This document shows positions 15,798 to 53,256 of a stretch of DNA of 53,256 bases, in pieces. Source of the DNA: Olsenella profusa F0195 (GTDB lineage: Bacteria; Actinomycetota; Coriobacteriia; Coriobacteriales; Atopobiaceae); contig NZ_AWEZ01000016.1 of NCBI RefSeq assembly GCF_000468755.1, forward strand, positions 1-53,256. Reading direction: 5' to 3'. The notes under the pieces were generated by a model. The model made no database searches. It worked only from the letters and a program-made list of their open reading frames with translations, and was not told where the DNA came from. How positions within the stretch are numbered: the first letter of the stretch is position 1; every line of letters begins with the position of its first letter. Position numbers and translations under genes: made by a program.

Positions 15798-16185
15798 CTA
15801 GAATGCGAGATCCTCATTCGAGGACACATCGAACGTCGCCATCATCTCCGAGCCTGTGTCGTCAGGCCATTTGCGAACTGTCCTGACAGCGATTTTCGCT
15901 CCTCCTTCTGCGGGAAGCCGAATACGCCCGTGCCGATGCAGCAGAGGACAATCGAAGACAGGCTGTAATTCTTCGCCAGGACCAGGCAACTGCTGTGGCA
16001 GCTGGCGAGCTGTACGTGGGTGAAGGTCCGTGAGACTCCCGTGCGCGATGGTACCGGCCGTATGGATGACGTGCTTCGAGGGGAGGTTGTACGCGGTGGT
16101 GATCTTTACCGATTAACCCCTCGAGCAGCTCGTCCTGCGTTTTGAGCCAGTTTTCATCCGCAGGTGTCGGTGACCTGGTGTTCAC
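15798..16185 (-). pseudogene. Macrodomain ADP-ribosyl hydrolase, multiply frameshifted
   Basis: Pieces of a zinc-type macrodomain can be read in different frames. They are YNLPSKHVIHTAGTIAHG, then LSSIVLCCIGTGVFGFPQKE, which is the diagnostic loop (normally CCISTGVFGFP). Last comes AKIAVRTVRKWPDDT with GSEMMATFDVSSNEDLAF. At least two frame changes separate them. In intact loci this enzyme removes ADP-ribose placed by the neighbouring SirTM sirtuin. The gene lies directly downstream of the SirTM remnant. Confidence 0.8.
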
Positions 16186-32886: not shown

Positions 32887-32955
32887 TGGCGTGGCCATTT
32901 GGCTCGTCTAGGCTATCCATGAGGTCAAGAGAGGCTCAACGGAAGGAGAGACCCC

Positions 32956-33747: not shown

Positions 33748-33775
33748 GGTCGCTCCGATTGAGTGGGGATTGCCC

Positions 33776-36775: not shown

Positions 36776-36788
36776 GCAGGGGACAGCC

Positions 36789-37736
36789 ATGGGGACACAG
36801 GCGCGGATCTCCTCCTCCCTTGTCCCCCTAGGGGGGGATTCGCTTGCCGGCGTGGTCGTGCAGGCCTTTGCCCATGGAATGGACGTCCAGCCCGATCAGG
36901 GTCGGCTCTTCTACGTCGGCGGGCATGACAGGCCCCTCTCCTGCATTGGCCTCCAGCTCCCCCAAGGACAGACCGGCCTGCTTCTTGACCGGGCCCGCAT
37001 CGGTGATGAGGTGCGCATAACCTCGCGGGGACTCTTCCTGACACGTGGCAGCCGTCCGCTCCTGCGCCTTGTCTGGACGGAGCTGGAGACGGTCCGCCTC
37101 TCCCTCACGTCCCAACTCTCCCCGGAGGGGCGCAGGCGCGTGGCTTCGGCCGTCGCGCACGCTGATCCCCCACTTTCCCCAGGGCTCGCCATCGACACAA
37201 GCCTGCTCGCTGCCCTGCGGGGTCTGGCAGTGGGGGAGGCCGCCAGGGAGGATGCCATCTTCTGGCTTCTTGGTCGGGGGCTGGGCCTCACCCCCTCGGG
37301 AGATGACATCCTCTCCGGTTTTGGCCTGGGTCTTCGTGCCCGGGGGGACGAAGGGGACCTTGCCGCCTTTGCAGGTGCGCTTCAGCGCACGCTCCTCATC
37401 CGGCACACCACGCCCGTAAGCGAGGCCTACCTGGCGGCGATGCTCGAAGGTACCTGCAACGAGGGATTTCTCGAGCTTCTTGAGGCGGCACAGGAAGGGA
37501 GGCCGCTCGAGGGTGCCCTTGCGGGGGCCAGGTCCTACGGCCATACCTCGGGGGACGATATGCTTCTTGGCCTCTATGCCGCATTCGCACGTCGGGCCCC
37601 CTCCCCCTCCTTGTGGGGATGGGGCAACAGCCTCTGGCGTCACACCGTCATCGGCAAGAACGGAGGAGCCCATGCCTACGACGCACCCCGAGCGCATCGT
37701 GATCGCCCTCGGCGGCAATGCCATCCTGACGGATGA
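36789..37736 (+). CDS. allH: AllH subunit of oxamic transcarbamylase (DUF2877)
   Basis: The 315-residue protein has the DUF2877 signature GLGLTPSGDDILSGFGLGL, and near the end SYGHTSGDDMLLGLYAAF, a second copy of the S-G-D-D pattern. It starts at ATG 36789, 13 bases after allFG, behind AGGGGA. Its 3' end overlaps the carbamate kinase gene by 65 bases, so the last 20 residues may be less conserved. It matches ylbF of E. coli, a subunit of the oxamic transcarbamylase. Confidence 0.8.
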   Translation: MGTQARISSSLVPLGGDSLAGVVVQAFAHGMDVQPDQGRLFYVGGHDRPLSCIGLQLPQGQTGLLLDRARIGDEVRITSRGLFLTRGSRPLLRLVWTELETVRLSLTSQLSPEGRRRVASAVAHADPPLSPGLAIDTSLLAALRGLAVGEAAREDAIFWLLGRGLGLTPSGDDILSGFGLGLRARGDEGDLAAFAGALQRTLLIRHTTPVSEAYLAAMLEGTCNEGFLELLEAAQEGRPLEGALAGARSYGHTSGDDMLLGLYAAFARRAPSPSLWGWGNSLWRHTVIGKNGGAHAYDAPRAHRDRPRRQCHPDG

Positions 37737-38619
37737 CCCCTCGGCAGAGGCGCAGATCAGGGCGCTTCAGAGGACCTGCGCCCACATCGTCCCCCTGGTT
37801 CGGGAGGGCAAGGAGATAGTCATCACACACGGCAATGGCCCCCAGGTGGGAAACCTGCTCCTGCAGCAGGAGACGGGCTCCTCTGCCAGGAGCCCCGCCA
37901 TGCCGCTCGACACCTGTGTCGCAATGACGCAGGGATCGATCGGCTACTGGACCGTGCTGGCACTCAAGACCGAGCTCAAGCGGGCGGGCCTCGACCACAG
38001 GGTCGACGTGCTCATGACAACGACGTCGGTTGCGGCGGACGATCCGGCCTTCAGGCACCCGACCAAGCCGATAGGTCCCTTCCTCACCGAGGAGGACGCA
38101 AAGGCACAGGCGGCGATTGATGGCTGCACCTACATAGAGGACGCAGGCCGTGGCTGGCGTAAGGTCGTGCCCTCGCCCCAACCGCTCGACGTGCCCGGCT
38201 CCGCCTGCGTCCCGGCGCTTGTCGAGCGTGGCGACATCGTGGTCTGCGTCGGAGGCGGCGGCATCCCGGTCGTCGAGACCGAAGACGGCTTTCGCGGCGT
38301 CGAGGGTGTCATCGACAAGGATCTCATGGCAGAGAAGCTCGCTGAGATCGTGGATGCAGACAATCTCGTGATCTGCACGGGCGTGGACAATGTCTGCATC
38401 GACTTCAACAGGCCGACCCAGCGTGCCTTGGGCGAGGTCTCCGTTCCGGAGCTTGAGCGCTACATCGATGAGGGCCAGTTCCCACAGGGGAGCATGCTTC
38501 CCAAGGTCGAGGCCTGCATCCGCTTCGTCGAGTCCGGTGCGGGTCGCGCGGCCACGATCACCTCGCTCGGTCGCCTGCGTGACCTGAGTCAGGGCGCCGG
38601 CACCCGTATCGTACGATAG
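37672..38619 (+). CDS. arcC: Carbamate kinase
   Basis: The 315-residue protein has the amino acid kinase fold with IVIALGGNAI at the N-terminus, VITHGNGPQVGNLLLQQE, GRGWRKVVPSPQP and VCVGGGGIPV, all of carbamate kinase. It converts carbamoyl phosphate and ADP to ATP, ammonia and carbon dioxide. Here it would harvest ATP from the oxamic transcarbamylase product. The ATG at 37672 follows GGAGGAG. In E. coli a dedicated kinase (allK, formerly ybcF) has the same place. Confidence 0.92.
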   Translation: MPTTHPERIVIALGGNAILTDDPSAEAQIRALQRTCAHIVPLVREGKEIVITHGNGPQVGNLLLQQETGSSARSPAMPLDTCVAMTQGSIGYWTVLALKTELKRAGLDHRVDVLMTTTSVAADDPAFRHPTKPIGPFLTEEDAKAQAAIDGCTYIEDAGRGWRKVVPSPQPLDVPGSACVPALVERGDIVVCVGGGGIPVVETEDGFRGVEGVIDKDLMAEKLAEIVDADNLVICTGVDNVCIDFNRPTQRALGEVSVPELERYIDEGQFPQGSMLPKVEACIRFVESGAGRAATITSLGRLRDLSQGAGTRIVR

Positions 38620-38646
38620 TCACCATCTTGAGAGAAAGGACCTGAC

Positions 38647-39699
38647 ATGCTCGTTGCACGTGAGGAGCTCAAGCGGCTCATGAAGGGGAAGTTCATGGCG
38701 GCAGGTCTCCATGAGGGGCATGCTGACGAGATGGCAGAGGTGCTCACCTGGTCGAGCGAACGGGGTCTTCACAGCCACGGAGAGGTGCGTGTCGAGTACT
38801 ACGCCGAGCGCATCTCCAAGGGTGGCATCACGATAGACCCAAGATGGGACTGGGAGCAGACGGGTCCCTGCTCGGGCATCCTCGATGCGGACAATGGCTG
38901 CGGCTATCCCTTTGCGATCCTAGGCCTCAAGAAGGCCATGGAGCTCGCACGGGAGCATGGCCTCGGCGTCGTGGGCATGAAGAACATCTCCCACTCGGGA
39001 GCCTTGGGATACTACACCGAGATGGCAGCGAAGAGCGACCTCTGCTGTCTCACGATGTGTCAGTCCGACCCGATGGTCATTCCGTATGGCGGCGCGGAAC
39101 CCTTCTATGGCACGAATCCGATCGCCTTCGGTGCTCCGACGGCAGACGAGCGCTTCGTGAACTTCGACATGGCGACGACGGTGCAGGCATGGGGGAAGAT
39201 CCTCGATGCCAAGAGCGCCGGCCGCCCCATCCCCGATGACTGGGCCGTCGATGCGGATGGCAAGCCGACGACCGACCCCCACAAGGTCAATGCCCTGCGT
39301 GCCATTGCGGGTCCCAAGGGCTACGGCCTGATGATGGTCGTCGACATCCTCTCCGGCATCCTTCTGGGCGTGCCCTCCGGCAAGAACGTCTCCTCGATGT
39401 ACCACGACCTGTCTGAGGGCAGGAACCTGGGCCATCTCCACATCGTGATCGACCCGTCCCGCTTCTGCGGCCTGGACGAGTTCAAGCGCCACATGTCCCA
39501 GACTCTGGATGAGCTGGCTGCCGTGAGGCCGGGCCCGGGCTTCGACAAGGTCTACTATCCTGGCGAGCGGGCGCTCATCCGCAAGGCCAAGTGCGATGCA
39601 GTGGGTGGCATCGAGGTCGTGGATGACATCTACGACTACCTCATCTCCGACAAGCTCTACATCCACAGCTGGGACCACAGAAACCGTTTCGCCGAGTAG
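38647..39699 (+). CDS. allD: Ureidoglycolate dehydrogenase (NAD(P)+)
   Basis: The 350-residue protein belongs to the malate/lactate dehydrogenase type 2 family. The N-terminal LHSHGEVRVEYYAERISKGG and VGMKNISHSGALGYYTEMA include the catalytic His and substrate loops. AFGAPTADERFVNFDMATT is the dinucleotide site. It oxidises (S)-ureidoglycolate to oxalurate, the substrate of the AllFGH complex. It is the last gene of the ureide operon, with a ribosome site GAGAAAGGA. Confidence 0.9.
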   Translation: MLVAREELKRLMKGKFMAAGLHEGHADEMAEVLTWSSERGLHSHGEVRVEYYAERISKGGITIDPRWDWEQTGPCSGILDADNGCGYPFAILGLKKAMELAREHGLGVVGMKNISHSGALGYYTEMAAKSDLCCLTMCQSDPMVIPYGGAEPFYGTNPIAFGAPTADERFVNFDMATTVQAWGKILDAKSAGRPIPDDWAVDADGKPTTDPHKVNALRAIAGPKGYGLMMVVDILSGILLGVPSGKNVSSMYHDLSEGRNLGHLHIVIDPSRFCGLDEFKRHMSQTLDELAAVRPGPGFDKVYYPGERALIRKAKCDAVGGIEVVDDIYDYLISDKLYIHSWDHRNRFAE

Positions 39700-39756
39700 G
39701 GCACAGGCAGGCAGGAGGACTCCGAAACGTGTGCCACGGACACCGGCACTCACGGG

Positions 39757-40712
39757 AATGCCTGTTTTCAGGTGGTCATGGGTGCCAAGGTGTCCAGGGT
39801 GTTCGAGGCGCTGATGCTCCTGCTCGACCCCTCCTGACGCACGGCACGGAGAAGGACGGCTCCGGTGCCCCCACGGTACGGGACGACCGCGGCTGGGGCG
39901 ATGGGATCCTCTCGACCGTCGCCAGGATGTTCACGCCCCTCATGCCCGCCATCGCGGCGGCTGGCCTCGTCAAGGGCGTCCTCACGGCCGTCTCGCTGAT
40001 CTTCAAGCAGCGGGGCATCGACATCACCACCAACGACACCTATGTGCTGCTGTATGCCGCCGGCCAGGTCATCTTCTACTTCCTGCCCATCTTCCTGGGC
40101 TATACGGCGGCCAAGGCGCTCAGGTGCAACGAGATCATCGCCATGGTCCTCGGGGCCTTCCTCTGCTATCCGCAGGTCGACAAGCCCATCCAGGATGTGG
40201 GAACGGCGACGACGATCTATGGCATCCCCGGCGTCAAGGCGACGTGGACGATCGGCGAGTCCACCAAGGTCTTCAGCTACACCGAATCCGTCATTCCCAT
40301 CCTGCTCGCCTTTGCGGGCGCCGCCAACTTCGCGCAGGGCGGTGCAGTCCCCGGTGTGTGGCTCAAGACCAAGAGCGAGGAGATGAGGGGCGTCTCCCTG
40401 TCCGTCATGATCTCCGCCGTGCTCGTGGGCATCACCGAGCCTGCCATCTACGGCTGCAACCTGCGCTTCAAGTGGCCCATGGCCTGCGCCATCATCGCTG
40501 GTGCCGTGGGTGGGGCCATCATGGGCTTCGGCAACGTCTTTGGCGACGCCTTCGCCACCAACGGTGTGCTGACCATCTTCACGTACGCCTCCTTTGGTAT
40601 CGCGCAGTTCGTGTTCTACCTGGTCGGATGCGCCGTTGCGTTCTTCGGTGCCGCAGCCCCCACGGCCGTCGTGGGCTTTGAGGAGCTCACCGACGAGGGG
40701 ATGGAGGTCTAG
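39757..40712 (+). pseudogene. Beta-glucoside PTS EIIBC remnant with internal deletion
   Basis: Only the end of an EIIB domain is left (CFQVVMGAKVSRVFEAL, out of frame and stopped at 39837). The EIIC part is open from about 39891 (STVARMFTPLMPAIAAAGLVKG) to 40712. Within EIIC, VIPILLA is joined directly to FAGAANFAQGGAV; about 80-100 residues normally between these helices are missing, in frame. No EIIA domain is attached. The protein cannot be a working permease. Confidence 0.75.
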
Positions 40713-40714
40713 GC

Positions 40715-42143
<1,429 letters not shown>

Positions 42144-42168
42144 CGCCCCGGTGGTTCCCGTGGCAGGG

Positions 42169-42330
42169 GGGAGTCGTATGCAATCTTGAGCCAGTGTTTG
42201 GGGAGTCGTTCGCAAACTCGGATGACCCCTCTTCGTAAAGTTGCAGGTAAAGGAGCTGCAGCTACTTTTTGGAGCGGAAAAGTCAGCCCAAAATCGCGAA
42301 CGACTCCCGAGAGGATTGCGAACGACTCCC
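42169..42330. repeat. Inverted-repeat element, copy 1 (about 162 bp)
   Basis: The ends GGGAGTCGTATGCAATC and GATTGCGAACGACTCCC form a 17-bp terminal inverted repeat (15 matches). A second, inner pair (GGGAGTCGTTCGCAA at 42201 and its inverse at 42294-42308) is nested inside. A related copy is at 46982. It contains no gene and lies between two convergent genes. Confidence 0.8.
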
Positions 42331-42359
42331 GGGAGGGTTGCCTACCTCAGGCGGCGCTC

Positions 42360-43364
42360 CTATCTCGTTGACTCGAGCCAGTTGACCGCACAGGGCAGGA
42401 TGCGCTGTTGCGGAGCCTGCTCTCCGGCGATCAACTGCGCGAGCATCGTGCAGGCCAGCTTCCCTTCCTCCTCGACGGGCTCGACCAATGTGGATATGGA
42501 GGGGGATGCGAGGCGGGTCCACTCGGCATTGTTGAGCCCCAGGAGGCCGACCCGCTCCGGAATGAGCTGGCGCATGGAGAGGAGTGCCTCATAGGTACGG
42601 GCGAGGGCCCATTGGTGCATGCAGAAGACGAGGGTTCTTCTGGACGGGTTGAGGGTGTATTCGAACTGATGCCGCAGCTCGGTGAGGGATGGCGCCTGAT
42701 GGGAGATGGCGATATGCTGGAAGGGGCGTCCGTGTTCCTCCAGCGCGTCAGACAGCCCCCGCAGGCGCTCGGAACGGGTGCGCATCTCCTCGACATTCGC
42801 TGCTAGCACCACGAACTCCTCGTATCCCTTGGCGATGCATGAGCTGGTGGCGTCATAGACGCCACCGTAGAGGTCCGTCTTCACCCAGGTGCTCGTCAGG
42901 TCGATGAGGTTGAAGTCATAGAAGACCACGGGCTTTCGCGCCCGTTTGATGCGCTCGTTGATGGCGCGGTAGCGTTTCGTCGGCTGTATGGCAAACCCGT
43001 CAACCCCGAGCGAGAGCATCTTCTCGACATAGTCATGCTCCACCTGAGGATCAAAGTGCGTGTCACAGACGACGGTCTGAAAGCCGCGTCCATATGCCTC
43101 GGTCTCAAAGCCCGAGACGAATCGTCCGGCCCATGCATTGGTGTTGTCCTCGAGGAGCACGGCGATGACCCCCGACTTGACGTTCCCGAGCATGCGCGCC
43201 TGTGCATTCGGCACATAGCCGAGCTCTTGGATGGCCTGCTCGACGGTCCTGCGCGTGCCTTGGCTCATGCGTTCGAACTTCCCATTGAGGTAATGGGAGA
43301 CGGTTGCGGTGGAGGTATGCGCCGCGCGCGCCACGTCTCGTATGGTCACGCGCTGGCCATCCAT
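42360..43364 (-). CDS. LacI-family transcriptional regulator
   Basis: The 334-residue protein has the LacI helix-turn-helix at its N-terminus (TIRDVARAAHTSTATVSHYLNG) and a hinge (LGYVPNAQARMLG). A periplasmic-binding-like sugar domain follows (VIAVLLEDNTNAWAGRFVSGFE). It is divergent from the fructose-family PTS operon and probably represses it until the sugar or sugar phosphate binds. The ATG at 43364 is preceded by GGAGGG. Confidence 0.92.
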   Translation of the reverse strand: MDGQRVTIRDVARAAHTSTATVSHYLNGKFERMSQGTRRTVEQAIQELGYVPNAQARMLGNVKSGVIAVLLEDNTNAWAGRFVSGFETEAYGRGFQTVVCDTHFDPQVEHDYVEKMLSLGVDGFAIQPTKRYRAINERIKRARKPVVFYDFNLIDLTSTWVKTDLYGGVYDATSSCIAKGYEEFVVLAANVEEMRTRSERLRGLSDALEEHGRPFQHIAISHQAPSLTELRHQFEYTLNPSRRTLVFCMHQWALARTYEALLSMRQLIPERVGLLGLNNAEWTRLASPSISTLVEPVEEEGKLACTMLAQLIAGEQAPQQRILPCAVNWLESTR

Positions 43365-43474
43365 GGCAATCCCTCCAATGTGCTGGCATGGGAGCAATGA
43401 TAGCGGCAGGAACGTAGGGCTCCCCTGTGGTTATGCCCAGTCACCGATGCTCCCATCTTTCTGTTGACATTCAT

Positions 43475-43487
43475 ATCACTTTGTGAT
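43475..43487. promoter_or_regulatory. Possible LacI operator (ATCAC-n3-GTGAT) near a -35 box
   Basis: A 5+5 palindrome follows the TTGACA hexamer at 43464-43469 in the 320-base AT-rich divergent region. The -10 box is not clear. The region has no gene. Confidence 0.4.
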
Positions 43488-43685
43488 TCACGAGCGTGCA
43501 GAATATGTCAATCGTTTAACTAAAATACAAAATTCTGGATAACAAAGACATATACCGAATAAATATTGATAGACATCTCCATCCAATTCAAGATAGGCAT
43601 CGAACGACCAAGCGTTTGGCAATGGCTGCCGCTCGATCCGGACGCGCGTCAGTGTGTGATCGCACTGCTCGTAGGGGAGGGGAAC

Positions 43686-45089
43686 ATGAGACTTGTTGCC
43701 GTATGCGCGTGCACCGTTGGCATCGCACATACCTATCTGGCAAAGAAGGCCATCGAGAAGGAGTGCGCACGGCGCGGGATAGACTGCAAGGTGGAGGCCC
43801 AGGGCGGCCTGGGCATCGAGAACGAGCTCACGCAGGACGAGGTCGATGGGGCGGACGTCGTCCTGCATGCCATTGACGTTGGCATAGAGGGAGACGACCG
43901 CTTCGAGGGCATGCGGGGGAGGGGCCGCTTCCTCAAGGTGGGCACCGCGGAGGTCATCTCTGACGCCTCGGTCGCCGTCGACCAGGCGGTTGCCTTGGCC
44001 GAGGCGGCCGCCGAGGTCGAGACGTCCGGTGGGGTACGGCAGGGCATCTTCGCCAACATGGGGCGCGACCTCCTGAACGCGTTCAACACCGGTGTGTCGT
44101 ACTTCATCCCGGTCGTCGTCATCGGTGGCGTGTTCCTGGCGTTCTCGCTGGCATCGGGCCAGGCGGGCAGCTCTGGCATGGAGGTCACCAACCCCTTCAT
44201 GCAGAACCTCAACCTCATCGGCATGGCGGGCATCAGCATGATGATCCCCGTGCTGGCCGCCTACATCGCCTACTCGATTGCCGGCAAGCCTGCCCTCGCC
44301 CCGGGCTTCGTCCTGGGCTACCTGGTCAACAACCCCGTGCCCGTGGGTGAGACCAACGTCTCCACGGGCTTTCTGGGCGCCATGATCATGGCCGTCGTGA
44401 CGGGCTACTTCGTCCGCTGGATGAAGACGTGGAGGACGAACGACACCGTCCGCACCATCATGCCCATCCTGATCATCCCCATCCTCACCTCGCTGGTCCT
44501 TGGCCTGCTGTACATCTACGTGCTTGCGGGTCCTCTGAGCGTCGTCATGGTGTGGCTCACGGACGTGCTCGGCAGCCTGCAGGGCGGTTCGGCGGTGGCG
44601 CTCGGCCTGGTCATTGGCCTCATGACCGCGTTCGACATGGGCGGTCCCGTCAACAAGACCGCCTCCACCTTCACGATGGCACTCATGACGACGGGCGTGT
44701 ACGCTCCTAACGGCATGTTCCGTGTCGCCGTCGCGGTGCCTCCCATCGCCTGTGGCATCGCCTCGCTCGTCGCGCGCACCAAGTTTGATGACGCGGATCG
44801 TCAGATGGGCGTCTCCGCCATCTTCATGGGCTGCATCGGCATCACCGAGGGCGCCATTCCCTTTGCCGTCAAGGATCTCGGGCGCACGCTTCCCGGCATC
44901 ATGATTGGCTCCGCCGTCGGTGCAGGGCTGGCGGCGCTGCAGGGCATCGAATGCTACGTGCCCCACGGTGGCTTCATCGTCGCCCTCGCCACCAGCAACA
45001 TCCCTCTGTTCTGCCTGGACATCGTGATTGGCGCGCTGATCGGTGCGGCAGTTCTGGTTGCCATGAAGCCAAGGCTGCAGGAACGGTGA
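43686..45089 (+). CDS. PTS fructose-family EIIBC
   Basis: The 467-residue protein joins EIIB (active Cys in CACTVGIAHTYLAKKAIEKE, residues 1 to about 100) with a fructose-type EIIC (from about 120: NAFNTGVSYFIPVVVIGGVFLAFSL, and TAFDMGGPVNKTA, a conserved substrate loop). It takes up and phosphorylates a ketose. EIIA is encoded two genes downstream. The ATG at 43686 follows GGGGAGGGG. Confidence 0.92.
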   Translation: MRLVAVCACTVGIAHTYLAKKAIEKECARRGIDCKVEAQGGLGIENELTQDEVDGADVVLHAIDVGIEGDDRFEGMRGRGRFLKVGTAEVISDASVAVDQAVALAEAAAEVETSGGVRQGIFANMGRDLLNAFNTGVSYFIPVVVIGGVFLAFSLASGQAGSSGMEVTNPFMQNLNLIGMAGISMMIPVLAAYIAYSIAGKPALAPGFVLGYLVNNPVPVGETNVSTGFLGAMIMAVVTGYFVRWMKTWRTNDTVRTIMPILIIPILTSLVLGLLYIYVLAGPLSVVMVWLTDVLGSLQGGSAVALGLVIGLMTAFDMGGPVNKTASTFTMALMTTGVYAPNGMFRVAVAVPPIACGIASLVARTKFDDADRQMGVSAIFMGCIGITEGAIPFAVKDLGRTLPGIMIGSAVGAGLAALQGIECYVPHGGFIVALATSNIPLFCLDIVIGALIGAAVLVAMKPRLQER

Positions 45090-45178
45090 GGGCGAGTGAT
45101 TCCAGCCTGACGGTTCCGTTCATCCCATGTTCGTCCAACAGCAATCCATCGCCCAAGGCGATGGGGAAGGGGGCTGCC

Positions 45179-46450
45179 ATGCCTGGCAGGCTTTCAATCA
45201 AGCAAGCGGTGCGGGGAATGCTCAAGCTTCAGGATTCGGGTGACCATGCCACGATGATCGGCATCGGCCCCATGTCGCCCAACCTGCTGCAGGCGGCGTT
45301 CGAGCTCGCCCGCGACGAGGACTTCCCCCTGATGTTCATTGCCTCGCGCAACCAGGTGGACATGGACGAGCTGGGTGCGGGCTACGTCAACCACTGGGAC
45401 CAGAGGCGCTTTGCGGCAGACATCAGGAAGGCCGCTGACGAGGTGGGCTACGATGGCCCGTACTACCTGTGTCGTGACCACGGCGGTCCGTGGCAGCGTG
45501 ACGAGGAGCGCAACGCGCACCTGTCCGAGGACGCGGCCATGGAGATCGCCCGCAGGTCCTTCGTTGCCGACATGGAGGCGGGCTTCGACCTCCTGATGGT
45601 GGACCCCACCAAGGATCCCTACCAGACCGGCAAGGTCATCCCCCTAAAGGTCGTGCTGCGGCGCACCGTCGACCTCATCGACTACCTCGAGAGGTACCGT
45701 CGCGAGCACAACCTGCCCGAGGTTGCCTATGAGGTGGGCACCGAGGAGACCAACGGTGGCCTGACCACGACGGACACGTACGAGGAGTTCATCTCCCAGC
45801 TCAAGCCCGAGCTCGAGAGGCGTGGCTGCCCCATGCCCACCTTCATCGTGGGACAGACGGGCACCCTCACGCGCCTGACCGAGCAGGTGGGCCACTACAA
45901 CTACCGGAACGCCCGCGAGCTGGCCGACATGGCCAAGCGCTATGGCGTGGGCCTCAAGGAGCACAACGCCGACTATCTGGACGACGTGACCCTGCTCGAG
46001 CACATCCCCGCCCACGTGACCGCCTCCAACGTGGCTCCCCAGTACGGCACCGAGGAGACGCGCGCCTACCTCAAGCTCTGTGACGTGGAACAGCTGCTTG
46101 TTGACAACGACCTCTGCGGCGATCCCTCCGACCTGCGCCATGTGCTGCTGGTCAAGGCGATCAAGACGGAGCGCTGGCGCAAGTGGATGTGCGGCGGCGA
46201 CGTCAACCTGCAGGTGGACGACATTCTCAGGGACGAGGAGCTGTCCCTCCAGATCCTGGACATCTCCGGCCACTATGCCTTCGATGACCCGGAGGTCAAG
46301 GAGGAGCTTGCCACGCTCTATCGGAACCTCGCGGCGCAGGGCATCGATGGCCAGCGCTTCGTGGTCGAGCACATCAAGCGCCCCCTCAGGCAACATGTCG
46401 TGGGCCTCAACCTCACGGGTGTGACCACGCGCATCAAGGACGTGCTGTAG
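45179..46450 (+). CDS. GatZ/KbaZ-like protein (class II tagatose-bisphosphate aldolase non-catalytic subunit family)
   Basis: The 423-residue protein has the GatZ/KbaZ patterns: IGIGPMSPNLLQAAFELARDEDFPLMFIASRNQVD, YLCRDHGGPW, MVDPTKDP, YEVGTEETNGG and LKEHNADYL. In E. coli it stabilises the catalytic GatY or KbaY. No such aldolase partner lies in this operon. Relatives are reported to have hexulose 6-phosphate 4-epimerase activity, so it may itself act on the PTS product, for example tagatose 6-phosphate. The ATG at 45179 has AAGGGGG upstream. Confidence 0.8.
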   Translation: MPGRLSIKQAVRGMLKLQDSGDHATMIGIGPMSPNLLQAAFELARDEDFPLMFIASRNQVDMDELGAGYVNHWDQRRFAADIRKAADEVGYDGPYYLCRDHGGPWQRDEERNAHLSEDAAMEIARRSFVADMEAGFDLLMVDPTKDPYQTGKVIPLKVVLRRTVDLIDYLERYRREHNLPEVAYEVGTEETNGGLTTTDTYEEFISQLKPELERRGCPMPTFIVGQTGTLTRLTEQVGHYNYRNARELADMAKRYGVGLKEHNADYLDDVTLLEHIPAHVTASNVAPQYGTEETRAYLKLCDVEQLLVDNDLCGDPSDLRHVLLVKAIKTERWRKWMCGGDVNLQVDDILRDEELSLQILDISGHYAFDDPEVKEELATLYRNLAAQGIDGQRFVVEHIKRPLRQHVVGLNLTGVTTRIKDVL

Positions 46451-46508
46451 GTCCCGTCGGTGCCGGTGGGTGGATACCCATGCGAGGCGTAGCACAGGGG
46501 AAGACGTC

Positions 46509-46964
46509 ATGGAACGATCCGTCACGGAACGAAACGTGCTGCTGCACCAGCAGACGGCAACCGGGGAGGAGACCCTGCGCATCATCTCGGACTACCCCAT
46601 CGCCTTGGCTGCCGCCGACGACGCCTACGAGGTGTACGCCGGCTTCCTCGCGCGAGAGGAGGTCGACCAGACGGGCATGGTCGAGGGGTTTGCCATTCCC
46701 CACCGCAAGACCGATGCCGTGAAGCGGGCGACGGTCATCGTCTTCAAGAACGACCGGAAGCTCGCGTGGCCCTCCCTCGACGGCGAGCCCGTCGACATCG
46801 CCATGGCGCTCCTGGTCCCTGGCCAGGAGGCAGGCACGAAGCACCTGCGCCTGCTCTCGAAGACGGCGGTGCTGCTGATGGACGATGGGTTCAAGAAGCT
46901 GTTGTGCGAGGGGGATGACGCCACGTTTGTCGCTGATGCCATCAACGCCGAGTTGGAGCGGTAG
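46509..46964 (+). CDS. PTS EIIA component (fructose/mannitol type)
   Basis: The 151-residue protein is an EIIA-Fru/Mtl domain. The phosphorylated His lies in EGFAIPHRKTDAV, and the C-terminal part has HLRLLSKTAVLLMDDGF. It takes phosphate from HPr and passes it to the EIIB of the same operon. The start at ATG 46509 follows AGGGGAAG. It is the last gene of the operon. Confidence 0.9.
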   Translation: MERSVTERNVLLHQQTATGEETLRIISDYPIALAAADDAYEVYAGFLAREEVDQTGMVEGFAIPHRKTDAVKRATVIVFKNDRKLAWPSLDGEPVDIAMALLVPGQEAGTKHLRLLSKTAVLLMDDGFKKLLCEGDDATFVADAINAELER

Positions 46965-46981
46965 CCTCGTCCGTCCATCGC

Positions 46982-47144
46982 GGGAGTCGTATGCAATCTT
47001 GATTCAACGCTTCGGGGGTCGTTCGCAAAAGCGGACGGCTCCTCTCTTATAACGCTACAGGTAGAGGAGGTGCGGGTACTTGTGGAGCAGCGACATCGGC
47101 CCGAAAAATGTGAACGACTCCCCTGAGGATTGCGAACGACTCGT
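46982..47144. repeat. Inverted-repeat element, copy 2 (about 163 bp)
   Basis: It starts with GGGAGTCGTATGCAATC, identical to the left end of copy 1, and ends with GATTGCGAACGACTC. Inner repeats (GGTCGTTCGCAA and GAACGACTCCC) are in the same places as in copy 1. It also lies between two convergent genes, the EIIA gene and the OPT transporter. Confidence 0.8.
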
Positions 47145-47159
47145 CAGACAGATGCGATG

Positions 47160-48848
47160 CTACCCCATGCCGCCGAGGATCGTGGCGAGCGCGATGACGA
47201 CACCCACGATGGACTCGCCGCCGAGCACGCCGGATGCCACAACGATGCCATCCCCCTGCGGCACATCGTCGGCCCGCTCGTCACCTGCCTGCGACCTGTG
47301 CCGTGCATGCCCATCAAGGACGAGCTTGACCAGGCCTCCCAGGAACGCGGGCACGCTCATGTAGAAGGGCAGATAGACACCGAGGCCCATCATGATGGCG
47401 GGAAGCCCCATGCAGTAGAGCACGACGCCGCTCGCCAGTCCCATGGCAAACGCTGGCACGCTGGGCACGCCCGTCACCATTGTCGCCACCACGCTTGCTT
47501 GGGTCGAGACAAACTCCTTGCCCAGGCCAAACGCATCGGCTCCATAGGCGGCCCGTATGGCGACCATGGTGGCCACAGAGACGAACACACCAACGGTGGC
47601 GCCGAGGGCCTGCGCCTTCCATAGCACGCGTGGGTTGTTGCCCAGCAGCGCCCCGGTCTTGAAGTCGGCCATCACGTCACCGGCAAGTCCGCAGGTCACC
47701 GTGATGATGCCTGCCACAAGGAAGAGGCCGACCTGGGACAGGCTGGAGACCGCCGCCACGCAGAGCAGCACGATGAGGCCGAAGACCTCCATGGGGTCCA
47801 CGCCCGTCTGTCCCACGGACTGTGCGCTCATGGTGGTGGTCACGAACGAGAGCAGCACGATGAGTACGGTCGGCACGGGGCCGAGTCCCAGTCCCACCCC
47901 CACGACGAGGGTGGCTGCGGCCACAAGAAGCGCAAGCATCCCGATGTCTCGGTGTCCCTTGATGTCGCCCGTCCAATCGTTCCTACCTTCGGGGTCCGAG
48001 CCGCCCATCCTGCGCGATCCGAGTAGTCGTGTGATGACCAGGCGGTACAGCACATCCTTCACGACGACTCCCAGGCCCGCTCCCATCATGAGACCCATGC
48101 CCAGGCTGCGTACGATGCCGCCGGCGGCCTCCACGCTCCACAGGCCCAGGCTGCTCGCACCCACGACAAGCCCAAAATTTGCGAACAGTGCCGAGGCAAG
48201 CCAGAACGATACGGGCACAAAGCCCACGAGAAAGCCCATGGAGAGCCACATGGGCGAGTTGTTGAGGCCAAACGCCACCCCCGGGATGTCGAGGGCGAAG
48301 AGGCGTGCCGGCAGGAGGTGCATCCCGTCACGGAGCACCGCCCAGGCACCGGCGATCCCCATGGACGCGAAGAGCCTCCGCCCCGTGGAGCCACCCTCGC
48401 GGGCTGCCTTGAGAGTCTCGGCAGCGGCGGTGCCTATGGGATACTCAAGGTCCGAGTTGTCCACGAAGCGCCTGCGGATCAGCATGGTGCATACCAGGCC
48501 CAACAGGGTGCCTGCGACTGCCACCATGAGCATCTGCATCCAGCCTATGCCATCCGAGAGCCCCAGCATCCATGCCCCCGGTATGGTGAAGGCGAGGCCG
48601 CCCGCCACCATGGAGCCGGCAGACATCACGATTTGGGTGACGTTGGCCTCGGTCACGCTGTGGCGCCCGCAGGCGCGCAGCACCAGCAGCGCCGTGATGG
48701 AGGTGAAGATGGTGGGCCAGGGGAGAGACCCCAGCTTGAGGGCCGTGTAGGCCGATGCGGCCGTGAGGATGACACACCCCACGATGCCGATGACGAATCC
48801 AGGCATGCTGAGCTCGTCGCGCAGACGCGCGCCACGCGGTTCGTCCAT
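47160..48848 (-). CDS. OPT-family oligopeptide transporter
   Basis: The 562-residue protein has about 14 hydrophobic helices. Family motifs include YTALKLGSLPWPTIF near the N-terminus, the middle AGSMVAGGLAFTIPGAWMLG, and LVFGLNNSP-like repeats. It imports oligopeptides or metal-chelate peptides by a proton gradient. It is somewhat shorter than many OPT proteins but has a normal end (GGESIVGVVIALATILGGMG). It is convergent with the PTS operon. Confidence 0.88.
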   Translation of the reverse strand: MDEPRGARLRDELSMPGFVIGIVGCVILTAASAYTALKLGSLPWPTIFTSITALLVLRACGRHSVTEANVTQIVMSAGSMVAGGLAFTIPGAWMLGLSDGIGWMQMLMVAVAGTLLGLVCTMLIRRRFVDNSDLEYPIGTAAAETLKAAREGGSTGRRLFASMGIAGAWAVLRDGMHLLPARLFALDIPGVAFGLNNSPMWLSMGFLVGFVPVSFWLASALFANFGLVVGASSLGLWSVEAAGGIVRSLGMGLMMGAGLGVVVKDVLYRLVITRLLGSRRMGGSDPEGRNDWTGDIKGHRDIGMLALLVAAATLVVGVGLGLGPVPTVLIVLLSFVTTTMSAQSVGQTGVDPMEVFGLIVLLCVAAVSSLSQVGLFLVAGIITVTCGLAGDVMADFKTGALLGNNPRVLWKAQALGATVGVFVSVATMVAIRAAYGADAFGLGKEFVSTQASVVATMVTGVPSVPAFAMGLASGVVLYCMGLPAIMMGLGVYLPFYMSVPAFLGGLVKLVLDGHARHRSQAGDERADDVPQGDGIVVASGVLGGESIVGVVIALATILGGMG

Positions 48849-48999
48849 AGCTGCTCCTTCGTATATCCGCTCCCCCTGATGCCAGCGCCCGTGCGTGGCG
48901 AGGAGTCGGGTTACCGGACGTCCGCAGGACGGGACGAGTCCAGCGAACGGCTACAGTGTAGAGGATGCGAGCGCCATCCACCAGGCGAGGGGGACGAAC

Positions 49000-49809
49000 A
49001 TGGCAGGGGCACAGAACGTGACCACAGGTGTCGTGCTGGCGGTTGACGTGGGCAACACCACGACGTCGCTGGGGCTGTTCGAGGGCGGCGGACATGCCTC
49101 CGACGAGCCCACGTGCACCTGGGAGCTCTCGACTCCCCAGCGCCTGACGGTGGACGAGGTGGCGCTTCGCATGAGGCAGGTCATGGGGGAACCACCCACC
49201 GGAGAGGTCATGGGCGCGATTCTCTCCTGCGTGGTGCCAGCACTGTCCGATGTGTGGGAGCGTGCCCTGGGGCGTCTCGGGCGATGTCGCCCGTATGTGG
49301 TGGGTCCAGGTCTCAGGACCGGGCTTCCGATGCGCTATCGCGATCCCTCGGAGATCGGCCCCGATCGCATTGCCGACGCCGTGGCGGCGCGTGAGCGCCA
49401 TGGGACGCCCGTGATCGCCGTCGACCTGGGGACCACGCTCAACCTGGAGGTGGTGGGACGGGACGGCTCCTTCCTGGGTGGCCTCATCGCGCCGGGGCTG
49501 GCAGCGGGGGCGCAGTCTCTCAGCCAGCACGCGGCACGGCTGCCCATGATCGAGCTAGCGGTGCCCGAGGCGGCCATCGGCCGCTCCACGCGCGAGGCCA
49601 TGCTCGCGGGCGTGGTGCTTGGAGAGGTCGCGCGCATCGATGGCCTGCTCGACCGCGTGTTTGCCGAGTTGGGGGAGGATGCGCCCATCGTGCTGACGGG
49701 GGAGGGGGCCACGCGCGTGGCCAAGCTCGTCTCGCATGACGTGATCGTGGACGCAACGCTCGCCCTCCGGGGGCTGCACCAGCTCTATCTGCTCAACGCG
49801 CGTAGGTAG
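49000..49809 (+). CDS. coaX: Type III pantothenate kinase
   Basis: The 269-residue protein has the CoaX/ASKHA motifs: VDVGNTTTSLGLFEG (phosphate 1), IGPDRIADAVAARE, and VDLGTTLNLEVV (phosphate 2), followed by GGLIAPGLAAGAQSL. It phosphorylates pantothenate in the first step of coenzyme A synthesis and needs a monovalent cation. I chose the ATG at 49000, directly before the conserved domain. Confidence 0.92.
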   Translation: MAGAQNVTTGVVLAVDVGNTTTSLGLFEGGGHASDEPTCTWELSTPQRLTVDEVALRMRQVMGEPPTGEVMGAILSCVVPALSDVWERALGRLGRCRPYVVGPGLRTGLPMRYRDPSEIGPDRIADAVAARERHGTPVIAVDLGTTLNLEVVGRDGSFLGGLIAPGLAAGAQSLSQHAARLPMIELAVPEAAIGRSTREAMLAGVVLGEVARIDGLLDRVFAELGEDAPIVLTGEGATRVAKLVSHDVIVDATLALRGLHQLYLLNARR

Positions 49810-49815
49810 GGGCGG

Positions 49816-49959
49816 CTAACGAGCATCGTCATCCACTTCACCCTGCCGCGATGCCTGTATGCGGCGCATGGGGTAGGTCCCGGTCCAGATGATGGCGAAG
49901 AGCGGCGCGGCCAGCGCGAGGGTGCTCTTGTCTACGGTTGCCGCCCTAGCTTGGCTCAC
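49816..49959 (-). CDS. Small membrane protein coupled to nrdG
   Basis: A 47-residue frame begins at GTG 49959, overlapping the nrdG stop (GTGA). It has one hydrophobic segment (STLALAAPLFAIIWTG) and a basic then acidic tail. No family is recognised. The coupling makes it plausible, but it could be chance. Confidence 0.35.
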   Translation of the reverse strand: MSQARAATVDKSTLALAAPLFAIIWTGTYPMRRIQASRQGEVDDDAR

Positions 49960-50501
49960 ATCTCGTGCGTCTCGAACAGCGGGTCGTCACTCCAGAGCAC
50001 CACCTCACTCGCCGCGAGGCTGGCGGGCACGTCGATGATGCGCTGGTTGGAGGAGCCCTTGAAGCGCAGCGCGATGTCATGCAGCTCCTGCACGAAGGGG
50101 CCATCCACCAGCACGTCGAGCGTCCGCAGGATGCGCCGCATGTCCTCGCTGGCATGGCTTCCGGAACCCGTGAGCTCCTCCCAGGTGCGGCCGGAGTAGA
50201 GCCAGATGCCCTTCTGGGGATGGGCCGCGCGCACGCGCTCGAGGAAGGGGGCCAGCGCCTGGGCGTTCTCGGGCTCGGTCGGCTCGCCGCCCAGCACGGT
50301 GAGGCCGTCCACGTAGGCCGGAGCGAGCGACTCGACGACGCGATCCTCCACCTCGGTCGTGAAGGGCTCCCCCGCGAGGAACGACCAGGCGCCGTTGTTG
50401 AAGCACCCCTTGCAGTGCAGGCGACAGCCCGAGACAAAGAGCGACGTGCGCACACCCGCGCCGTTCGCGATGTCGCAGTACTTGATGTTGGCGTAGTTCA
50501 T
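49956..50501 (-). CDS. nrdG: Anaerobic ribonucleotide reductase activating protein (radical SAM)
   Basis: The 181-residue protein has the NrdG radical SAM motif CRLHCKGC (C-x3-C-x2-C) and the typical GLTVLGGEPTEPENAQ and GIWLYSGRTWEEL. It makes the glycyl radical in NrdD with S-adenosylmethionine under anaerobic conditions. I use the ATG at 50501 (MNYANIKYCDI), which fits the family start. The nrdD gene itself is not next to it. Confidence 0.92.
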   Translation of the reverse strand: MNYANIKYCDIANGAGVRTSLFVSGCRLHCKGCFNNGAWSFLAGEPFTTEVEDRVVESLAPAYVDGLTVLGGEPTEPENAQALAPFLERVRAAHPQKGIWLYSGRTWEELTGSGSHASEDMRRILRTLDVLVDGPFVQELHDIALRFKGSSNQRIIDVPASLAASEVVLWSDDPLFETHEM

Positions 50502-50631: not shown

Positions 50632-50723
50632 GGCTAGGTTATGAATTGTGGTAAGGAGACGTGGAAGGACATGGGACATGTGCCAACTGTTTCGCCTTCT
50701 ACGCAATGTGAGAGGAGGGGATT

Positions 50724-50804
50724 ATGAAGACCATCGTTGCGGCAAAGAGTGGCATGAGGGTTCGCTCGTTTAGCTGTGGGTTCGGTGCCGTTGTCCTCGT
50801 GTAG
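50724..50804 (+). CDS. Putative RiPP precursor peptide (26 aa)
   Basis: A 26-codon gene begins at an ATG with the strong ribosome site GAGGAGGGG upstream. It has a basic N-terminal leader-like half (MKTIVAAKSGMRVR) and a short hydrophobic C-terminal half with one Cys (SFSCGFGAVVLV). It lies 69 bases before a radical SAM/SPASM gene and an ABC transporter, the usual layout of peptides modified by radical SAM enzymes. The shape recalls small Cys-containing precursors of Clostridia, but only one Cys is present. Its product, crosslink and activity are unknown. It was too short for ordinary gene finders. Confidence 0.6.
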   Translation: MKTIVAAKSGMRVRSFSCGFGAVVLV

Positions 50805-50812
50805 CGGTAAGA

Positions 50813-50837
50813 GGGCGGAGCTTGTGGGGCTCCGCCC
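50813..50837 (+). other. Stem-loop between precursor and maturase
   Basis: GGGCGGAGC and GCTCCGCCC form a perfect 9-bp stem with a 7-base loop, directly after the precursor stop. No T-run follows. Such hairpins often partly stop or protect RNA so that the precursor is made in excess of the enzyme. Confidence 0.65.
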
Positions 50838-50873
50838 GTATGTTCTCGAGAGGGTCATATCGAGAGGACAGAT

Positions 50874-52103
50874 ATGTCGCCAATGCTTGCGCCGCATACA
50901 AAGCAATCCCTGTTCAATGTCTGGTTTTCAGCAGATGATGAGGACTATGTCTTTAACACGAAGACCAGTGCCATGTTCCAGATGGATCCAGCCTACCTGT
51001 CTCATGTGTCTGAAGATGAGGCCTGTACGCTTATGAGTAGCGGCATACTTGTGTATGAGAAGAAGGATGAAGTAAGTATTCTTGAACATGAGGTGATGGA
51101 AGGGCTGAACGTGCCCATAGGTGAGGTCTATCTGACAATTGTCCTAACTGAAAGATGCAACTTCCGTTGTGTGTACTGCTATCAAGAACATGGTGGGGAA
51201 TCCCTTACCCCAAGAGACTCTCATGAGCTACTGAAACATGCTGAGAGGATCGTTCAGCGTGGTGCTACAGCTCTGCGCATTGTCTATTTTGGAGGAGAGC
51301 CTCTTCTGAATCGCGAAGCGATTTTGCAGATTGATGCGGGGATGAAGGCTATTTCGAGAGAGTATGGGGTTGAATACTCCGCCCTCATATCAACGAATGG
51401 GTCGCTCCTCGATGATGAGCTTCTTGAACGCGTGAGCTTTGAGAGAATTCGCCTGACATTTGACGGAGATGAGACCTGGCATAATAGTTTGAAGAGGGCG
51501 CACAGCTTTCCCTATCGTGAGCAGGTCAGTCTTCTGGATCGGATTGTGAGAACGACGTCCTCTAACCTTGAGATACGACTCAACCTCTGTCGGGAGAATG
51601 CCGATTCCTTTGTAGAGACGTTAAACGATATTTCCACAATGATTTCCGCCAATATTCGACGCATACGGCTTGTATATGCTGCGTTGCATAACGAGGTGCA
51701 TAGTCCCACCTTCCATGAGCTTACTTCCGAACACTTTGCTCATAAGGTCTTACTGCTTCGTCTGCATGCCAGGAATCTCGGATTCACTCAATGTCTGCCG
51801 GGCATGAGCCGGCCATGCCCCTTTAGGACGGGTCGGGCCCTATGCATCGGTCCGGGTCTGAGGCGGAGAATTTGCTCTGAGAGAATTGAGTTCTTCGATG
51901 AGGCGAACGGTGTCACGTCTTATCAGGACATTGCCTTTCATGGAACTTGTCGCTCGTGTTCCGTGCTTCCGCTGTGTATGGGCCCATGCCCTATGAGCCC
52001 GGAGAAGCATGTTTGCATTCCTGAGAGATACATCCTAAGGGACCTCCTCCGGGATTTCGTCTGCCATCGGGAGGGTTGGGTTATCGAGCAAGAGCATGAG
52101 TAA
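50874..52103 (+). CDS. Radical SAM/SPASM peptide maturase
   Basis: The 409-residue protein has the radical SAM triad CNFRCVYC with Cys95, Cys99 and Cys102, followed by FGGEPLL near 139-145. The C-terminal SPASM domain has C-x2-C-x5-C-x3-C at Cys359, 362, 368 and 372, and a further Cys381. Residues 10-75 look like the short N-terminal domain (DDEDYVFNTKTSAMFQMD) that such enzymes use to bind a peptide. It would make a thioether or carbon-carbon link in the precursor. The gene is clearly AT-richer than its neighbours, which suggests transfer. The ATG at 50874 has AGAGGA 5 bases upstream. Confidence 0.85.
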   Translation: MSPMLAPHTKQSLFNVWFSADDEDYVFNTKTSAMFQMDPAYLSHVSEDEACTLMSSGILVYEKKDEVSILEHEVMEGLNVPIGEVYLTIVLTERCNFRCVYCYQEHGGESLTPRDSHELLKHAERIVQRGATALRIVYFGGEPLLNREAILQIDAGMKAISREYGVEYSALISTNGSLLDDELLERVSFERIRLTFDGDETWHNSLKRAHSFPYREQVSLLDRIVRTTSSNLEIRLNLCRENADSFVETLNDISTMISANIRRIRLVYAALHNEVHSPTFHELTSEHFAHKVLLLRLHARNLGFTQCLPGMSRPCPFRTGRALCIGPGLRRRICSERIEFFDEANGVTSYQDIAFHGTCRSCSVLPLCMGPCPMSPEKHVCIPERYILRDLLRDFVCHREGWVIEQEHE

Positions 52104-52155
52104 GCGCAGTCATATTGCATGCGGCTCTTTGAGACTGTGATGGGGGGCAGAGGTT

Positions 52156-53256
52156 TTGCGCAGAGATGCGGGGGTGTCCTTTCCAGTATTCGAGCTCACG
52201 GGAAAAAACGCGCTCATGGCGCTGGGCTGTGCCCTATCGACGACATGTATGGCGGTGGCAAGTCTGCTCATTGCGGATGTCATCAGCCGCATCTCGCTCG
52301 GGCAGGATATCCACAGCGTGGCAGGCTGGCTCGTTCTTGCGCTTATCATGACGCTCGTTTCTGCTGCATCGAGCGTGCTCCTCTCCTCATGGATGCCGAA
52401 GCGTCTGGAGATAGGACGACAGCGATCGGCTTCTGTGAGGCTGATTCGTGACCTCCTCTCTTCCCCATGGCGTGTTTATAGGCATCATGACAAGAGCTTC
52501 TACCTCAATGTACAATCGAGTTCGATAGGTGTGTATGCCAGTACGTATGCTGACTTGAGCGTGAGGCTCATGGGGTCCCTGCTGTGCCTCTTGGTGCTTC
52601 TGGCCCTCATGGGTTGGTTACATCCAGCCTTCCTCCTAGGCTGCGTGGTATATATCCTTCTCTTCTATGGGACCTTGCGCCTGCCGGCGGGCCGCCTTGC
52701 TCGCCTGCAGCAGGAGGGGATAGCAACCCAAGATGACTTTCTTGGAGAGTCCAAGCGCATCGTGGAGAACAAGCGCCCCATCAACGCCATCCGTGCGGAG
52801 GATTACTTCTCCCACCGCTATCATCATGCGGCGCGCGAGTATCTCTCCTTCATATGGCGCTATCGCTTCAATGAGATGATGGTAAGCGATGCTCCTATCC
52901 TGCTGACAGTCCTCCTGCAGGTCGTTCTGCTCGCGGAGTCGGCGTGGTTGTGCATACAGGGCTCCATTGGGGTGGGAGCGATCTACGCGAGCTACAGGCT
53001 CGCGTCTCTCATGCAGGACCCCTTGTCGATAGTATTACAGATCTTTGTGAGGTATCGGGCCAATGCGGTGCACCTCGACCGCCTCAGGGGCCTCGCCTCC
53101 GAGGCCCGCGAGTCCTCGGGCTTCGAGGGGCTCTACCGCGACACCGGCGACCTCGCCCGCATCTCGGGGAGCCTGTGGGCGACGGCCGCGCGCGAGGGGG
53201 AGCCGCTGTTCCGGGCGGCGGGCGTGAGGGTGCCCCGCGGGGCCCTTACGGTGGTC
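52156..53256 (+). CDS. ABC transporter with fused membrane and ATPase domains, partial (runs off the window)
   Basis: The frame is open from 52156 (TTG; a GTG at 52174 is another choice) to the window end, 367 codons without a stop. The start region reads VSFPVFELTGKNALMALGCAL, followed by six hydrophobic segments typical of the ABC exporter membrane domain (for example LLCLLVLLALMGWLHPAFLLGCVVY). The last residues RAAGVRVPRGALTVV lead into the nucleotide-binding domain, just before Walker A. It probably exports the modified peptide and follows the maturase by 52 bases. GC content rises sharply near 53060. Confidence 0.75.
   Translation, partial: MRRDAGVSFPVFELTGKNALMALGCALSTTCMAVASLLIADVISRISLGQDIHSVAGWLVLALIMTLVSAASSVLLSSWMPKRLEIGRQRSASVRLIRDLLSSPWRVYRHHDKSFYLNVQSSSIGVYASTYADLSVRLMGSLLCLLVLLALMGWLHPAFLLGCVVYILLFYGTLRLPAGRLARLQQEGIATQDDFLGESKRIVENKRPINAIRAEDYFSHRYHHAAREYLSFIWRYRFNEMMVSDAPILLTVLLQVVLLAESAWLCIQGSIGVGAIYASYRLASLMQDPLSIVLQIFVRYRANAVHLDRLRGLASEARESSGFEGLYRDTGDLARISGSLWATAAREGEPLFRAAGVRVPRGALTVV

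Follow-up and report, generated by a model that had tools for sequence, protein, structure and literature searches.

The last part of a 53,256-nucleotide stretch of DNA from Olsenella profusa F0195 (the window, which is the whole of contig C16 of a 2.72-Mb draft genome, G000) carries three consecutive genes on the forward strand: a 26-residue peptide open reading frame (ORF) with a single cysteine, a radical S-adenosylmethionine (SAM)/SPASM enzyme, and an ATP-binding cassette (ABC) exporter that is cut by the contig end (Table 1). This is very probably a real cluster for a ribosomally synthesized and post-translationally modified peptide (RiPP), of a known general kind, and we consider it likely that the cluster makes and exports a short peptide with a cross-link centered on the cysteine. 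A first-pass annotation of the DNA had described a radical SAM peptide cluster of three genes in one direction within 2.5 kb. The layout stands, with precursor, maturase with full iron-sulfur cysteine sets and exporter all present in that order, but the extent does not, as the locus is larger and probably includes a second exporter and an AraC-type regulator.

Table 1 Features of the peptide locus, with coordinates in the window, and candidate precursors of the sister loci
Feature	Position	Strand	Basis and remarks
nrdG (anaerobic ribonucleotide reductase activase)	49956..50501	-	NCBIfam NrdG, 170 bits, cut-off 126; start codon is the left island edge
Shine-Dalgarno site of the precursor, AGGAGGGG	50713..50720	+	Read directly; close upstream of the ATG
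Precursor peptide gene (putative)	50724..50804	+	ORF read, and same kind of ORF beside clade maturases; 26 residues, one Cys (Cys18), end CGFGAVVLV; translation MKTIVAAKSGMRVRSFSCGFGAVVLV
Proposed modified core, residues 18-26, CGFGAVVLV	50775..50801	+	By-eye alignment with the cores of relatives
11-bp GC-rich stem-loop between precursor and enzyme	50813..50837	+	Folding; probably a leaky terminator
Radical SAM/SPASM peptide maturase, 409 residues	50874..52103	+	Pfam, NCBIfam, cysteine motifs, fold search, tree
Maturase N-terminal domain, residues 9-77, strands then helices; presumably RiPP recognition element (RRE)-like	50898..51104	+	AlphaFold2 secondary structure
CNFRCVYC, residues 95-102, expected ligands of the SAM [4Fe-4S] cluster	51156..51179	+	Read directly
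SPASM-type cysteines C315, C334, C359, C362, C368, C372, C381	51816..52016	+	Read directly
ABC exporter, membrane domain and start of ATPase domain	52156..53256	+	Pfam ABC_membrane; cut by contig end, start codon uncertain
Start of exporter ATPase domain	53071..53256	+	GC rise from 0.57 to 0.77 about here
Precursor of L105 (Tissierella)			MKVLVRSKKTLKSNFYTAGHCCSGVVIC
Precursor of L106 (Lachnospiraceae)			MKIIFDPIREKKNNRSGDSLCCNGIVM
Precursor of L108			MKIIAKKQTIAVVSVIGNCCSGIAAF
Precursor of L110			MKEILQIQNETVSGSMDQCCNGGVGL
Precursor of L039			MRIIKNGSDVLDQADCLTINCCSGAVGAFPDEVEDEL

The candidate precursor reads as first described, a small gene behind a strong ribosome site. Among the 1297 ORFs of 15-40 residues in the window, with every ATG, GTG or TTG start taken, it is the only one to combine an M[KR]x[ILV] start, a C..G no more than 12 residues from the end and a hydrophobic tail, features that were picked with the peptide already known. 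It had not been recognized from described families at first pass, and neither this peptide nor any of the five related ones introduced below reaches a Pfam or NCBIfam cut-off, and PHROGs gave no match for the window peptide or the L105 peptide. The nearest approach of the six to a known model is that of the L108 peptide to methanobactin, a weak similarity (E 0.012, under the Pfam cut-off) that the window peptide does not share. Methanobactins are made by a different type of enzyme.

The enzyme matches the Pfam Radical_SAM model (E 4.6e-13) and possesses the full cysteine set attributed to it at first pass, with CNFRCVYC at the radical SAM site and CX2CX5CX3C...C at residues 359-381. C315, C334, C359, C362, C368 and C372 are invariant in a seven-row maturase alignment. 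The Pfam SPASM model has no match in the maturase, so that the SPASM assignment is based on its cysteine pattern. Among solved structures, the chain closest in sequence is 5wgg (2.2e-23), followed by 8vpo; the fold search places 5why/5wgg on top, then TigE and SuiB, all of them peptide maturases. The entry titles name a thioether-forming sactipeptide enzyme for 5wgg/5why, which we take to be CteB, and TigE for 8vpo. The best NCBIfam model is that of the Clo7bot maturase, and the 25 best models (of 69), PapB and SCIFF included, all lie far under their cut-offs. A viperin-like defense function was considered and rejected, since the match to the PADLOC viperin models (E 6.5e-15) is confined to the radical SAM core, and both the neighboring genes and the SPASM cysteines indicate a peptide maturase.

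Maturases for comparison were gathered from a search of the class, a genome scan, plasmids, phages and two Bacillota families. In a careful tree of 35 rows, for which nine long-branched or odd-composition rows had been dropped, the window maturase belongs to a clade of eight with support 99/93; the same eight group at 85 in a quick tree of 44 rows chosen by hand, to which L224 yielded no row. The members are the enzymes of the window, O. profusa An794, Lachnospiraceae L107 and L109, Tissierella praeacuta L105, L108, L110 and the gut-metagenome contig L039. With the O. profusa An794 pair as query, one contig scan returned relatives (the best 80 of 104) and the other distant enzymes only; single-protein scans of genome and viral contigs with the window maturase gave no match, nor did viral scans with the L108, L196 and L039 enzymes.

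Every clade member with flanking DNA (five of five) has a tiny peptide gene beside the maturase. L107 and L109 start inside the gene at a contig edge and O. profusa An794 is without the 5' region; a sixth locus, L106, whose enzyme is 97.9% identical to that of L107 over 241 residues and stands in for it, has such a gene as well. The precursor frame proposed at first pass thus recurs beside homologous maturases, with a matching tiny frame at five other loci, so that the RiPP reading withstands the refuting condition set out at first pass. All six peptides are 26-37 residues long and share an M[KR]x[IL] start, a ribosome site and C[CG]xG with small hydrophobic residues after it. The cores of the relatives, aligned by eye, read CCSGVVIC, CCNGIVM, CCSGIAAF, CCNGGVGL and, ahead of PDEVEDEL, CCSGAVGAF; this extra acidic end belongs to the L039 peptide. 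The window peptide is the sole one-Cys member, with C-G-F-G where the others have C-C-[SN]-G. Its one cysteine and hydrophobic end were read correctly at first pass, but they are not the isolated oddity they had seemed, being a variant of the C[CG]xG core of the relatives. An exporter gene accompanies all six loci, of the ABC type by Pfam in the window, L039, L105, L106 and L108, and of the major facilitator superfamily (MFS) in L110.

The rarity of this peptide type was assessed on both strands with a defined shape (ATG, M[KR]x[ILV], 18-40 residues, C[CG]xG then 2-16 residues). Among 246 sequences (1,878,633 bases, some overlapping) six distinct peptides were retrieved, all six beside these maturases and all with a ribosome site, and three Markov resamplings (5.6 Mb) gave six matches, none with a ribosome site. 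As the shape was drawn up after the peptides, this count measures rarity and is no blind prediction. The L105 peptide was found by inspection between genes, having been missed by a first scan restricted to upstream regions. Among the peptides close to other radical SAM genes of Clostridiaceae and Lachnospiraceae, none has this type of core.

A feature absent from the first-pass annotation is a hairpin 3' of the precursor, which is present at all six loci (z -3.3 to -8.4). In the window the stem lies directly after the precursor stop and the precursor-enzyme spacer folds at -32.4 kcal/mol. The individual z-scores, obtained for spacers of peptide loci only, are -4.57 for the window, -3.31 for L110, -8.44 for L106, -5.85 for L039, -3.75 for L108 (from the first 150 nt of its spacer) and -4.77 for L105; L196, a locus outside the clade, gives -4.36. 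The window stem-loop is among the terminator-like sites, of which two were found and 2.0 were expected in shuffles.

Several observations weigh against the reading of the locus as a cluster for such a modified peptide. The core pattern was written with the peptides already known and was widened to [CG] for the window. When the other five precursors are made into a profile, it does not single out the window peptide, which ranks 18 of 1416 scored ORFs with an E of 16. Searches with the precursor gave no homolog below E 0.02 other than the window itself in 396 genomes of the class, none in phages, and in plasmids one chance-level match each for the window peptide and the L105 peptide. Eleven loci were looked at (~1.5 kb on each side) out of 37 genomes with a chance-level precursor match, and no peptide maturase was seen there; the radical SAM frame in L076 is of a different kind, and in L083 a short frame fits a loose Cys pattern by chance. 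In the L110 enzyme (Clostridium sp. CF012, L110:2788-4062) Arg takes the place of the first CxxxCxxC cysteine; with this cysteine lost the enzyme may be inactive, which makes its peptide weaker evidence. In O. profusa An794, the closest relative, no precursor is left and the enzyme has lost its 5' part. The AlphaFold2 model of the window maturase is moderate, with a mean predicted local distance difference test score (pLDDT) of 70 and values under 50 for residues 91-107 and the greater part of the SPASM region, and the structural matches in the PDB are loose, with template modeling (TM) scores of 0.44-0.49 for the top four. Across residues 11-70, in the N-terminal domain, pLDDT block means are 77-89. 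Finally, at L105 the peptide gene follows the clade enzyme and is itself directly followed by another, divergent radical SAM gene and then the exporter, so that the peptide may serve this second enzyme.

Two of these loci merit description in their own right. The L110 precursor and hairpin look intact despite the missing cysteine of the enzyme. In T. praeacuta DSM 18095 (L105:7989-12118) one peptide gene is found with two divergent radical SAM genes and an ABC exporter, and the second enzyme is a long branch outside the clade.

Kinship of the six precursors rests on layout and a short motif, without significant precursor similarity. This low identity, together with the tiny size of the ORF, the non-significant profile match and the proximity of the L105 peptide to another radical SAM gene, would fit an ORF that is no substrate at all, either an attenuator leader or a chance frame, with an enzyme that acts on another peptide or protein. 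We regard this as quite improbable, because all six loci tied to one maturase clade agree in the position and length of the ORF, its ribosome site and start, the C[CG]xG core and the hairpin, a combination found nowhere else in the 1.88 Mb searched. That the ORF is translated and serves as the substrate of the maturase is accordingly how we read the locus, and the precursor and maturase look like an undescribed family, of which the window would hold the only one-Cys member seen here.

With respect to the reaction, the first-pass annotation had allowed either a single thioether or a carbon-carbon link at an aromatic residue. Cysteine chemistry is favored and an aromatic link is disfavored as the family reaction, since Cys is the only distinctive residue common to the six precursors, no aromatic residue is conserved among them, and L110 has none. 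Within the same RiPP system the enzyme could still make a carbon-carbon or carbon-only change, such as a link at an aromatic residue, a cyclopropylglycine at Val or an epimerization, with the cysteine in another role. Enzymes of the superfamily carry out diverse chemistry, the nearest folds include TigE and SuiB, and the window peptide holds F16, F20, V23, V24 and V26; TvgB is reported to make cyclopropylglycine at Val (PMC9062424), and by analogy such Val chemistry is possible in the window peptide. As the cysteine is the sole chemically distinctive residue shared by the six precursors, we consider a carbon-carbon or carbon-only product unlikely and retain the cysteine-centered cross-link.

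Several known systems resemble the window locus in part. The Clo7bot maturase (TIGR04334) has short MKFI-starting precursors upstream of it and an ABC transporter near, as in the window, but its model scores 94.8 bits with the window maturase against a cut-off of 600, it lies outside the clade of eight, and its seven annotated peptides are 41-53 residues long, rich in cysteine and arranged in tandem, whereas the window has one precursor with one Cys. The SCIFF/CteB and PapB ranthipeptide enzymes share with the window maturase an N-terminal domain, presumably RRE-like in the latter, and the radical SAM and SPASM parts, and 5wgg/5why is the nearest structure; the scores are, however, 43.6 bits against 425 for SCIFF (TIGR03974) and 81.9 against a cut-off of 340 for PapB (NF047865), and the window precursor has one Cys where that of SCIFF has six in 45 residues. 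One cysteine can suffice for a thioether, as in the NxxC radical SAM RiPP (RaS-RiPP) NxxcA/NxxcB of Streptococcus, in which one radical SAM enzyme is reported to make one Cys23-Asn20 thioether (PMC8326336, PMC13361665). The window precursor has no Asn and hence no NxxC motif, so that its acceptor must differ from that of NxxcA. It has in common with the CGx and CGG subfamilies of streptococcal RaS-RiPPs, to which it may be related, the Cys-Gly core motif for which they are named; their function is reported as uncharacterized (PMC13361665). Another one-Cys system is L196 on the Sarcina sp. JB2 plasmid p8 (L196:2352-3809; the plasmid is 10 kb), where a 20-residue one-Cys ORF, MKLIGKSGLEVDSICGVQIG, is combined with a ribosome site, a hairpin and a radical SAM enzyme; in contrast to the window, the enzyme is outside the clade of eight, the exporter is of the MFS type and the core is not CxxG. 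No paper that describes this family by title or abstract is among the literature matches listed, in a coverage that mostly leaves out subscription papers and hence gives weak evidence of novelty.

The window exporter matches Pfam ABC_membrane (E 6.3e-9) and retains, up to the contig end at 53256, the membrane domain and ~62 residues of the ATPase domain; the part present in the window has no Pfam match to a C39 peptidase. The downstream part of the locus is more complete in O. profusa An794 (G262/L010/L104; same family), whose enzyme is 45% identical and matched over residues 135-398 only, and where two complete ABC exporters and then a convergent AraC regulator follow downstream. The window exporter is 38.8% identical to the second of these and 30.2% to the first. 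The tandem An794 exporters (L040:3056-6298) are identical at 228 of 228 aligned residues in their ATPase domains and at 88 of 310 in their membrane domains. At the residue of this changeover, the GC content of the window exporter (region 53056-53256) jumps from 0.57 to 0.77. This suggests domain-level gene conversion between paired exporters, and a repeated ATPase segment may be what ended the contig within the exporter. The missing exporter parts were sought in the remainder of G000, where only unlike transporters were found. Contig C59 of this genome carries nrdD, then an AraC-type regulator behind its stop, then the contig end, and this regulator is homologous to that of An794 (38.7% over 279 residues, E 4e-65). 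An order of enzyme, exporter, exporter and convergent AraC thus seems common to two genera, with its middle part predicted for the window genome, and a second exporter and the AraC regulator probably belong to the window locus. A candidate regulator motif, TCGAGAGG, was dropped, with 6 matches in the window against 3.7 expected, and a sigma-70 promoter scan gave chance numbers only.

The state of the An794 locus also raises the question of decay. Its enzyme is 5'-truncated, the 5' part being closed by a stop, with a glycosyl hydrolase family 2 gene next upstream; the Lachnospiraceae enzyme occurs as two ORFs in two metagenome-assembled genomes, and a genome of the same species as the window lacks the cluster. 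The window cluster might by the same token be a decaying, inactive remnant, a view we hold to be very improbable given that its precursor, ribosome site, enzyme frame and expected iron-sulfur cysteines are intact. The break in the Lachnospiraceae maturase falls at nearly the same point in both assemblies (L106:1414-2591, L107:3-1143) and could reflect either decay or a genuinely split enzyme.

The same-species genome in question, G002, is colinear with window positions 32,944-50,500 at ~99% over the stretch fetched, and then has a 186-bp spacer and nrdD (identified by Pfam and NCBIfam) in place of the cluster. The nrdG and nrdD genes are adjacent there and are parted by the island in the window genome (nrdD at G000:C59:29949-33178). 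Since nrdG leads directly to nrdD in G002 and C59 carries nrdD and the AraC gene, the cluster is an island between nrdG and nrdD, with its middle absent from the assembly. Upstream from its start codon, nrdG of the window diverges from G002. The four other genomes of the genus that were compared gave no match better than E 1e-7, and of 140 family genomes only two, counting this one, reach E 1e-22 or better. The maturase gene has a GC content of 0.50 and a third-position value (GC3) of 0.53, while most 1-kb steps of the window lie at 0.53-0.71; the step 15001-16000, at 0.49, is equally low, so that low GC alone is not unique. Horizontal arrival, proposed at first pass from AT-rich genes, is supported by the island-free G002 and the genus genomes without a close match, and not by low GC alone.

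The following course of events would account for the locus. The 26-residue precursor is probably made in excess over the enzyme, because of the hairpin between the two genes, and its short N-terminal segment (MKxI...) would be bound via the RRE-like domain. The radical and the auxiliary iron-sulfur clusters would then link Cys18 with a residue close by, in the simplest case inside CGFGAVVLV and through one thioether. The product, trimmed by an unlinked protease or left untrimmed, would leave through the ABC exporter, probably one of a pair, to act as a signal or antibacterial peptide, and the convergent AraC-type regulator probably controls the cluster.

We put forward more tentatively, as a possibility that we would not yet bet on, that the clade represents an undescribed class of minimal RiPPs, in which a radical SAM enzyme would close the last residues of a ~26-residue precursor, C-[C/G]-x-G and small hydrophobics, to a very small ring. 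The alpha carbon of the conserved Gly at +3 would be the natural acceptor, and the outcome would be a Cys-to-Gly sactionine ring of four residues. If so, the one-Cys version of the Coriobacteriia would be the simplest form, and the double-Cys relatives might carry two linked rings. What the enzyme does with Cys18 when the second Cys of the CC pair is Gly is the question that this peptide poses, and the reaction can be studied directly, as a 26-residue substrate can be synthesized. A single odd ORF hereby becomes a testable family with members in cultured species, e.g., T. praeacuta DSM 18095. Clusters this small are easily overlooked, the precursor being under the usual gene-calling lengths, and our results suggest a way to find them, in which maturase clades are combined with the arrangement of ribosome site, Cys core and hairpin.

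Some further small ORFs were observed near radical SAM genes elsewhere. In L221, a one-Cys ORF of 16 to 18 residues, MIKIRKEDEVKICVIH, follows a GGGGGTGG site ~140 nt upstream of a radical SAM gene and is perhaps a minimal precursor. L229, L230 and L239 (the Clostridium CF012 family) are radical SAM loci with MFS-like transporters, typed by eye, and have ORFs of 54-62 residues that share the leader ELANAIQNE- and terminate in very short Cys ends, SFCCW, SWCGIGC and NFCVVISTK. In another Coriobacteriia family, L012/L013 and L041 upstream of 8361 (G136, G156) carry Cys-rich ORFs of 54 and 56 residues before a TIGR04463/Clo7bot-like maturase.

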